From Lishizhenia tianjinensis (GTDB taxonomy: Bacteria > Bacteroidota > Bacteroidia > Flavobacteriales_D > Crocinitomicaceae): a stretch of 64,000 nt of DNA. The DNA is taken from assembly GCF_900116425.1 (NCBI RefSeq), contig NZ_FPAS01000003.1:310001-374000 (forward strand). The letters are read 5' to 3'. This document shows, in pieces, positions 11,184 to 58,867 of the stretch. Both the position numbers and the translations under genes were made by a program. Every line of letters begins with the position of its first letter. Within the stretch, counting starts at the first letter, position 1. The notes below the pieces were generated by a model. It worked only from the letters and a program-made list of their open reading frames with translations. It made no database searches and was not told the origin of the DNA.

Positions 11184-11194
11184 TAAGGCCGATT

Positions 11195-11343
11195 CCCCCC
11201 AAGCTTACTTGGGGGGCAAGCTATCCGCTATAGTTCACGCATCCTCGCCCTTTTCATCACATCGTAAACAAAGCTTCACAAGGTCGCTTTCTTTCCTTCA
11301 GCATTCAATAGGGATCAGCTGTGCAAAGCTACCGCTCCTATCT
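11195..11343 (-). repeat. intergenic repeat element, copy 1 (with hairpin)
   Basis: Read on the minus strand, three islands occur in order: GATAGGAGCGGTAGCTTTGC (11343-11324), GAAAGCGACCT...GAAGCTT (11291-11271) and AGCGGATAGC (11229-11220). All three recur in the same order in the copy near 58.6-58.7 kb, with island spacings of 52 and 62 nt here against 50 and 61 nt there. A perfect 9-bp hairpin (CCCCCCAAG at 11195-11203, CTTGGGGGG at 11208-11216) follows in the minus-strand direction. The stretch holds no ORF of note. It may be a structured RNA or a mobile repeat of the Bacteroidetes. Confidence 0.65.
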
Positions 11344-11381
11344 TTAACGGATAAGTTCAGATAAAAATTAAGAGCACAAAA

Positions 11382-11410
11382 AAAAGTGTAAATCATAGAC
11401 TCACACTTTT
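11382..11410 (-). terminator. terminator of the CarboxypepD_reg-like gene
   Basis: An inverted repeat, AAAAGTGT (11382-11389) and ACACTTTT (11403-11410), is followed on the minus strand by a run of eight T, 22 bp after the stop of the minus-strand gene. Confidence 0.75.
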
Positions 11411-11431: not shown

Positions 11432-12094
11432 TTATTCTCTTTTCAACTCACCTGCTTTCCAAGCTTTAACAAAATTACTCCAAGCCACAGGGTTCAACAA
11501 GTTATTTGGTTGCGCCATTCCCATATCTCTGTAAAGTCTGGTTTGCTGCGCTTGTTGCTCTATATTATAACTCAAACTGGCATCCGTTGGTAATTTAGCG
11601 GCTACAAAAGCCAAAGCTTCTCCAGACAATTGTCGCTGTGCTTTCTTCAGGGCATCATCATAGGGATCCATCTCCACAAAGGCTCTTGCAAAATCTTCAC
11701 GAGAAGGCCAAGGGTAAATATCAACGGGAGCAAATTCTATAGTATCCGGATTCATAATATGTATCATATTATAATTGTCCATCGTTAAGGTATCTGGTAC
11801 TATATACGCTGAGGTTTTAAATCCATAAACCGAAAACAAAAGTGTATCTCCTGGTCGGGTTACTGTGCTAAAAAAACCGTAATAATCAGAAATCACACCT
11901 CTATCCGTAGTTTTATTATAGATAGCTGCGTAGGCAATATTCTCCAAACTATCCCAAGAAACAACTATACCCGATAGCTGAACCAAATGTTCTGTTGTAT
12001 CTTTCGGAGTGGTTGTTTTAGTGGTATCACTACTTGCTTGGCCCCATACAGAAGCAGTGGCTACCAAGCAAAATATTAGTATAAAATGTCGCAT
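11432..12094 (-). CDS. exported protein with carboxypeptidase-regulatory-like beta-sandwich
   Basis: This 220-residue protein has a clear signal peptide (MRHFILIFCLVATASVWGQA) and a short Thr/Lys/Asp linker. It then has a domain resembling the CarboxypepD_reg-like fold common in Bacteroidetes surface proteins: LSGIVVSWDSLENIAYAAIY, then GVISDYYGFFSTVTRPGDTL, then FSVYGFKTSAY. This is the pattern of a transthyretin-like sandwich that stiffens or anchors outer-membrane proteins. The C-terminal half is helical and Gln/Ala-rich, with PWPSREDFARAF as a recognisable segment of this family. It stands alone on the minus strand between ispF and a membrane-protein gene, with its own terminator. Location is periplasm or outer membrane; the specific role is unknown. 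Confidence 0.65.
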   Translation of the reverse strand: MRHFILIFCLVATASVWGQASSDTTKTTTPKDTTEHLVQLSGIVVSWDSLENIAYAAIYNKTTDRGVISDYYGFFSTVTRPGDTLLFSVYGFKTSAYIVPDTLTMDNYNMIHIMNPDTIEFAPVDIYPWPSREDFARAFVEMDPYDDALKKAQRQLSGEALAFVAAKLPTDASLSYNIEQQAQQTRLYRDMGMAQPNNLLNPVAWSNFVKAWKAGELKRE

Positions 12095-58568: not shown

Positions 58569-58599
58569 TCCCGGTTCTTGATGAATCGGGATTTTTTTT
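58569..58599 (+). terminator. terminator of the DUF2795 gene
   Basis: TCCCGGTTC (58569-58577) pairs with GAATCGGGA (58583-58591), one G-U pair and a 5-nt loop, followed by eight T. Confidence 0.9.
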
Positions 58600-58614
58600 G
58601 CCTTTTGCGCTAGG

Positions 58615-58735
58615 GATAGCAGCGATAGCTCTGCAGAGGGAAAGTTTATATTTTGTGAAAGTTTGAAAGCGACCTAAGAAGCTTTAAAACGACCTGACAA
58701 AATAGACTTTACCGCCAAGGACTAAAGCGCATAGC
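58615..58735 (+). repeat. intergenic repeat element, copy 2
   Basis: Three islands match the element near 11.3 kb in the same order: GATAGCAGCGATAGCTCTGC (58615-58634), GAAAGCGACCT...GAAGCTTT (58665-58685) and AGCGCATAGC (58726-58735). Island-to-island distances are 50 and 61 nt, against 52 and 62 nt in copy 1. Confidence 0.65.
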
Positions 58736-58867
58736 CCGCTTGAGCGCCCTACCCTACTTTTCTCTCATTATCAATTTGTAAATAAATTGTTAGCAAGGAA
58801 TTAACGCCGGTAATCAATCCCGCTTTTTTGTCATACAACTACTCCTCTACCGAAATTAAATCTGACG

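Follow-up and report, generated by a model that had tools for sequence, protein, structure and literature searches.

A dispersed long element related to Flavo-1 in Lishizhenia tianjinensis, with a shape kept while its letters change

Modular bacterial repeats with high copy numbers and RNA-like folds, such as BOX and NEMIS, are found in other phyla. REP elements are described in PMC3733652 as palindromes of 20-40 bp that are located downstream of genes. The flavobacterial motif Flavo-1, an orphan since 2010, appears as a table row in Weinberg et al. 2010 (PMC2864571), and its Rfam model (RF01705) has 76 positions and a gathering cut-off of 42 bits. For F. psychrophilum, PMC9723704 reports that Flavo-1 matches in transcribed regions occur in sense as well as in antisense and that many lie outside such regions. 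The elements analysed here are a long form of this known motif, of which no description was found in the open-licence literature searched with a few sets of terms.

Two intergenic gaps in the window (the whole stretch of 64,000 nucleotides of the Lishizhenia tianjinensis genome analysed here) carry three conserved islands in identical order, as the original prediction had read from the sequence. Copy 1, on the minus strand, lies between ispF (PF02542, 10704-11183) and a minus-strand gene at 11432-12094; copy 2, on the plus strand, has a DUF2795 gene and secA as its neighbours. The islands start at 11342, 11291 and 11229 in copy 1 (51 and 62 nt from start to start) and at 58615, 58665 and 58726 in copy 2 (50 and 61 nt); the earlier spacings of 62, 50 and 61 nt are thus exact, and the earlier 52 nt is off by one. 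Both elements are longer than first described once an outer helix, P1, is counted (Table 1). In copy 1, a trailing CC follows the CGG of P1, and the apical island GAAAGCGACCTTGTGAAGCTTT is one base longer than in most copies (alignment A1, see below). The predicted C6/G6 hairpin of copy 1 is present, and it is an optional junction arm and no family-wide feature. The ispF here has 78% identity with Fluviicola and 77% with Brumimicrobium, which would place the organism near both.

Table 1 Positions in the window of the two elements, their parts and the adjacent terminator-like sites.
Feature	Position	Strand	Basis
Copy 1, whole element, P1 and junction hairpin included	about 11187..11350	-	R2 match and sequence
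Copy 1, modelled core (Flavo-1-like helix, long helices, apical loop)	11214..11347	-	R2, Flavo-1
Copy 1, apical island GAAAGCGACCTTGTGAAGCTTT	11270..11291	-	sequence, alignment A1
Copy 1, optional hairpin CCCCCCAAG-TAAG-CTTGGGGGG in the 3' spacer between P2 and P1	11195..11216	-	sequence
Copy 1, P1: 5' strand CCG, partner CGG	11348..11350, 11189-11191	-	sequence
Copy 2, whole element, P1 included	about 58607..58747	+	R2 match and sequence
Copy 2, P1: GCGCT pairing with AGCGC	58607-58611, 58743-58747	+	sequence
Copy 2, modelled core	58610..58741	+	R2 match, Flavo-1 match
Copy 2, apical island GAAAGCGACCTAAGAAGCTTT	58665..58685	+	sequence, genome pattern search
Terminator-like site of gene 11432-12094, upstream of copy 1, outside the element	11382..11410	-	
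Terminator-like site after the DUF2795 gene, upstream of copy 2, outside the element	58569..58591	+	

The family is too diverged for BLAST, because a nucleotide search that used copy 2 as query (own genome, E ≤ 10) listed 18 places without copy 1 among them. The apical island, with up to 2 mismatches, occurred at 39 places in the genome compared with 7 for a reversed-pattern control, and recognisable arms were seen by eye in 28/30 of the pattern loci that were read. A sequence-only MAFFT alignment of 28 copies (A1) was used to build a covariance model, R1. The rows of A1 are loci L023-L052 (L027 being copy 2) plus L013, L014 and copy 1, minus five that were dropped as chance matches in apparent coding sequence (L044, L047) or as poorly alignable (L035, L042, L050). 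R1 found at least 114 matches at E ≤ 1 in the 3.56-Mb genome, 111 of them at E < 0.002, and this count may be low, as 150 of 1650 first-look candidates were scored. Across the whole window, R1 recovered both copies, with everything else at most 13.3 bits. A second model, R2, whose training set of 26 copies excluded both of those in the window, recovered copy 2 at 94.5 bits (E 2.4e-19; 58610-58741) and copy 1 at 70.8 bits (E 4.4e-14; 11347-11214), and its next-best match in the window scored 8.1 bits. The median pairwise identity among 107 aligned copies was 42%; 98 of them were 130-136 nt long and three were short (59, 69 and 96 nt). Both gaps are therefore members of a family of elements of ~134 nt with roughly a hundred copies in the genome, and the original prediction, which had named a lack of further copies and a lack of conserved spacing as grounds against itself, stands on both points.

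The own-genome locus scan with R1 covered 100/106 loci (L061, which is L111's place, L176, L177, L179, L180 and L184 were left out). Two adjacent inverted pairs of long elements were seen in the own genome, at L144 (1453-1588, plus; 1635-1768, minus) and L168 (1542-1674, minus; 1776-1909, plus). Near-identical copies stand at contig ends of the assembly (L081, L116, L117, L132), perhaps adjoining rRNA operons or a similar long repeat; L116 and L117 are identical and were excluded from the P1, strand-asymmetry, flanking-site and hairpin counts. AT-rich degenerate repeats, ATTTGAAATTGGAAATTTGAAATTG-like downstream and CTCAATACTCCTTACTCTTGCTCAATACTG-like upstream, surround both copies of L138 as well as L081, L116, L054 and L025, and are possibly a second dispersed family.

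With regard to Flavo-1, to which the original prediction had pointed, kinship is borne out and formal membership is not. Both window copies match RF01705 from end to end (model positions 1-76 of 76), copy 1 at 20.6 bits (11356-11210) and copy 2 at 19.6 bits (58595-58745), far below the cut-off of 42 bits; a gathering-level Rfam scan of the 64-kb window returned nothing, and the best RF01705 score in the own genome was 35.5 bits, also below the cut-off. Other members do pass. Among 20 loci at which R1 gave a short match, 15 had Flavo-1 at E ≤ 0.01, and three of the short R1 matches themselves exceed the cut-off (L205, L197, L198). The fourth match to exceed it, in L093, belongs to a neighbouring element; at this locus two Flavo-1 elements stand back to back on opposite strands (1406-1474, minus; 1489-1574, plus). 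For long forms, Flavo-1 was found at the element in 8 of 20 loci (E ≤ 1), with L088 passing at 47.5 bits, and in 11 of 14 long-form loci from the class (E ≤ 0.1), four of which reach the cut-off (L413, L411, L408 and L414; 55.1, 49.8, 42.2 and 42.0 bits, the last exactly at it). Long and short forms intergrade, so the window copies are diverged long members and not formal members of RF01705.

The fold is a rod that consists, from the outside in, of P1, of P2 (the Flavo-1 helix, whose purine-rich internal loops are conserved), of long helices that are free in sequence and fixed in length, and of a conserved apical loop (CGACC..GAAG). The strict loop pattern CGAC...GAA was present in 94/104 long own copies, with a spacing of 4 or 5 in 91. 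To score the fold on A1, we took the minimum-energy fold of L030 minus three pairs that formed in fewer than half of the copies. Two-sided changes occurred at 33/36 pairs, 74.6% of cells were paired (55.1% in shuffles), and the covariation score was 0.496 compared with 0.186 when shuffled and 0.342 for the best of six slid versions; all five measures were above 500/500 shuffles. The folded structure proposed by the original prediction has thus passed a compensatory-change test. An alignment of 106 distinct copies (A2) gave a covariation score of 0.710 (0.205 shuffled), although this alignment was fitted to the model and leans to it; further pair types in A2 numbered 145 compared with 141.3 in shuffles, 63/500 of which were as high.

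P1 has 4-5 pairs. Among 156 elements, perfect complements of 5 nt were present in 105 (shuffled mean 38, maximum 53) and those of 4 nt were also in excess (135 vs 90), with no excess at 6 nt (14 vs 11.4). The 3' spacer between P2 and P1 held perfect stems of at least 5 bp in 33/105 copies (shuffled mean 11.4, maximum 17), some of which may be P1 itself.

The two strands of the element are not equivalent. At helix positions with Watson-Crick neighbours, G.U outnumbered A.C by 86 to 18 and G.A outnumbered C.U by 83 to 8 (105 copies), where base composition would give chance ratios of about 1.1 and about 2.1, respectively. The model-fitted alignment used for these counts somewhat favours G.U, and the structure-free A1 gave 61 G.U and 35 A.C. 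Mutation of double-stranded DNA yields G.T and A.C equally, and the great excess of G.U over A.C therefore argues that selection acts on the purine-rich strand in single-stranded form. These counts fit RNA and single-stranded DNA equally; we infer that RNA is the more likely acting molecule. A promoter of its own was rejected as a feature of the element: TAnnTTTG upstream in sense (8/105) showed no excess over the antisense (12) or downstream counts (11 and 5). In 65/102 cases the element is on whichever strand is locally G-rich (P 0.007), and nothing is drawn from this on replication strands, because the G-rich letters of the element itself are included in the count.

The 107 copies were distributed over convergent gaps (45), co-directional gaps in sense (25) and antisense (22), and divergent gaps (12), with three unassigned. 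Convergent gaps held 45/102 elements compared with 7/81 background gaps (odds ratio 8.3, P 6e-8), divergent gaps were depleted (odds ratio 0.36, P 0.012), and no sense or antisense bias was seen in co-directional gaps (25 vs 22, P 0.77). This background is small: its 81 gaps, each of at least 60 nt, were taken from the window and from the flanks, and the two element-bearing gaps of the window are among them. Terminator-like sites upstream of the element were found more often in sense (14) than in antisense (4), and those downstream more often in antisense (22) than in sense (5; 105 copies each); these sites separate the element from the neighbouring gene and are oriented with that gene, at both window copies as well. 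With a simple ORF caller, 82/107 copies overlapped no ORF of at least 60 aa; the other 25 overlapped mechanical ORFs, of which 22 were shorter than 100 aa and three longer (250, 163 and 196 aa).

Copies have moved in the past. Five pairs with 74-85% identity (L154/L160, L125/L141, L133/L143, L111/L074 and L054/L055) lie in flanks that are largely unrelated, and together with the number of matches in the own genome they bear out the dispersed repeat of the original prediction. The 91% pair at L138 and the contig-end copies have flanking sequence in common and may be duplications. The neighbourhood of copy 1 is not conserved, with no R1 match at E ≤ 1 at 80 ispF loci from other species, and by a rough estimate the flanking genes common to own and other-genus loci are about as many as expected by chance.

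At some loci the element has stayed in place between species. In a genus of ten genomes, seven have a close mdh (>75% identity), whose 3' flank holds an element in 3 of them and, judged by eye, an apparent remnant in one; the 3' flank of a DsrE-like gene holds one in 2 of the 5 genomes having that gene. Comparison of the mdh locus across three species shows 11 pairs with changes on both sides, of which 8 remain paired, and P1 shifts from T-A to G-C. When the R1 structure is fixed, pairing is kept at 5/8, 4/5 and 4/5 such pairs in the three mdh comparisons, which are not independent, and at 5/7 at the DsrE-like locus; pairs are broken by 3, 3 and 6 single changes (mdh) and by 3 (DsrE-like). In a second genus, 2/3 two-sided changes keep pairing between L409 and L410, with 3 breaking single changes; L405 and L408 differ at 0/46 pairs and 6/58 unpaired sites, and L401 and L402 at 3 pairs and 3/56 unpaired sites. 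The fold has thus been mended in place between orthologues after the species split, as seen over five loci at which some changes also break pairs.

Among the nearest relatives, R1 matched at E ≤ 0.01 in 15/39 genomes, the own genome included. Across the family, matches at E ≤ 0.001 were found in at least 38/240 genomes from 13/24 genera (14 candidates scored per genome) and, across the phylum, in at least 25/296 genomes (11 candidates scored), mostly from one genus of another family of the same class; absence in these searches is weak evidence. In L404, a TPP riboswitch (1123-1219, plus) lies ~280 nt from a long element on the opposite strand. The Y1 transposase (PF01797) had no match in the own genome at E ≤ 0.001 and was present in 131/240 family genomes. 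The element was near 1 of 49 Y1 loci of relatives, where the sole associated copy (L381:1092-1227, minus; genome G005) is about 1.1 kb from the Y1 gene, and Y1 is therefore unlikely as the mobiliser.

Several explanations can be weighed against these observations. Folded single strands are substrates of transposases or recombinases in REP elements and at the ends of IS200/IS605, and the family could be a purely mobile DNA element of this kind, in which unfolded copies fail to spread. The similar pairs in largely unrelated flanks, the modular interior (short and long forms, optional hairpin), the absence of a gene-strand bias and of an element near ispF in the 80 related loci all fit such a reading, as does the enrichment in convergent gaps, which resembles the location of REPs given in PMC3733652. 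We nevertheless regard it as rather unlikely, given that the own genome lacks a Y1 match despite the largest copy set seen, that a single one of the relatives' Y1 loci has an element nearby and that compensatory changes at unmoved orthologous loci are unexpected if spread alone is selected. The covariation might also be questioned as a mutational artefact. The element is a long quasi-palindrome, long quasi-palindromes are a known substrate of template switching, and template switching in an imperfect inverted repeat can mimic compensation; such a process should, however, erase mismatched internal loops, which are here among the most conserved parts, and should be strand-even, in conflict with ratios of 86:18 and 83:8. 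This artefact is already disfavoured, and we give it very little credence. The excess of convergent gaps (odds ratio 8.3) could also speak for a bidirectional transcription terminator or a stabiliser of mRNA 3' ends for convergent genes. This we find improbable, since the genes have terminator-like sites of their own ahead of the element, only one strand forms the fold, and the left gene points away in 34/104 copies.

The reading that we prefer, and consider probable, is that of a long-form Flavo-1 element, dispersed and formerly or still mobile, whose single-stranded rod, most likely RNA, is read by the host and kept by selection. The purine-rich strand would fold on itself into a rod of about 134 nt with one putative recognition site at the base, the Flavo-1 helix with its symmetric purine-rich internal loops, and another at the tip, the GA-rich apical loop. 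The helices of free sequence and fixed length would hold these two sites apart, and a host factor would bind or measure the rod, most likely as RNA. Because the fold has been repaired in place after the species split, its loss would appear to cost the host something. The constraint on length but not on sequence between the conserved ends suggests that the rod serves as a ruler for a partner in contact with both, presumably a protein that reads them. Several observations speak against this reading: TAnnTTTG shows no upstream excess, co-directional copies have no strand bias, Flavo-1 matches in F. psychrophilum fall in both orientations and often outside transcribed regions, the in-place comparison covers five loci with some broken pairs, P1 has no excess at 6 nt, and further pair types in A2 stay within the shuffles. 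In its boldest form, which we hold only tentatively and think doubtful as a whole, the proposal is of a mobile element without Y1 that is selected for its fold in place and serves as a two-site ruler read by a Bacteroidetes factor, with the Flavo-1 of Rfam being only its short form. If the ruler reading is true, there would be a binding partner to find. With its long form, its outer helix and its compensation in place, an orphan motif becomes a testable object, with a shape under selection and a conserved loop to probe, found also in other families of the class.

When compared with described systems, the family resembles BOX and NEMIS, as these are commonly described, in its modular interior, high copy number and RNA-like fold. 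It is like REP elements and REPINs with their RAYT (Y1), as characterised in PMC3733652 and PMC6006769, in being dispersed and intergenic, in its preference for 3' ends, in a fold on one strand and in apparent mobility; it differs from them in having no Y1 match in the own genome (E ≤ 0.001) and no regular association with Y1 loci in relatives (1/49), and in length, at about 134 nt compared with the REP size given in PMC3733652. Its closest relation is with Flavo-1, with which it has in common the terminal helix and the conserved letters of the internal loops in identical order. The short apical region of the 76-position Flavo-1 model is not seen in the 98/107 copies of 130-136 nt. Compared with that model, the long form has ~75 nt more, made up of free-sequence helices and a conserved apical loop; it also has an outer helix (P1, 4-5 pairs), and some copies carry a hairpin at the junction.
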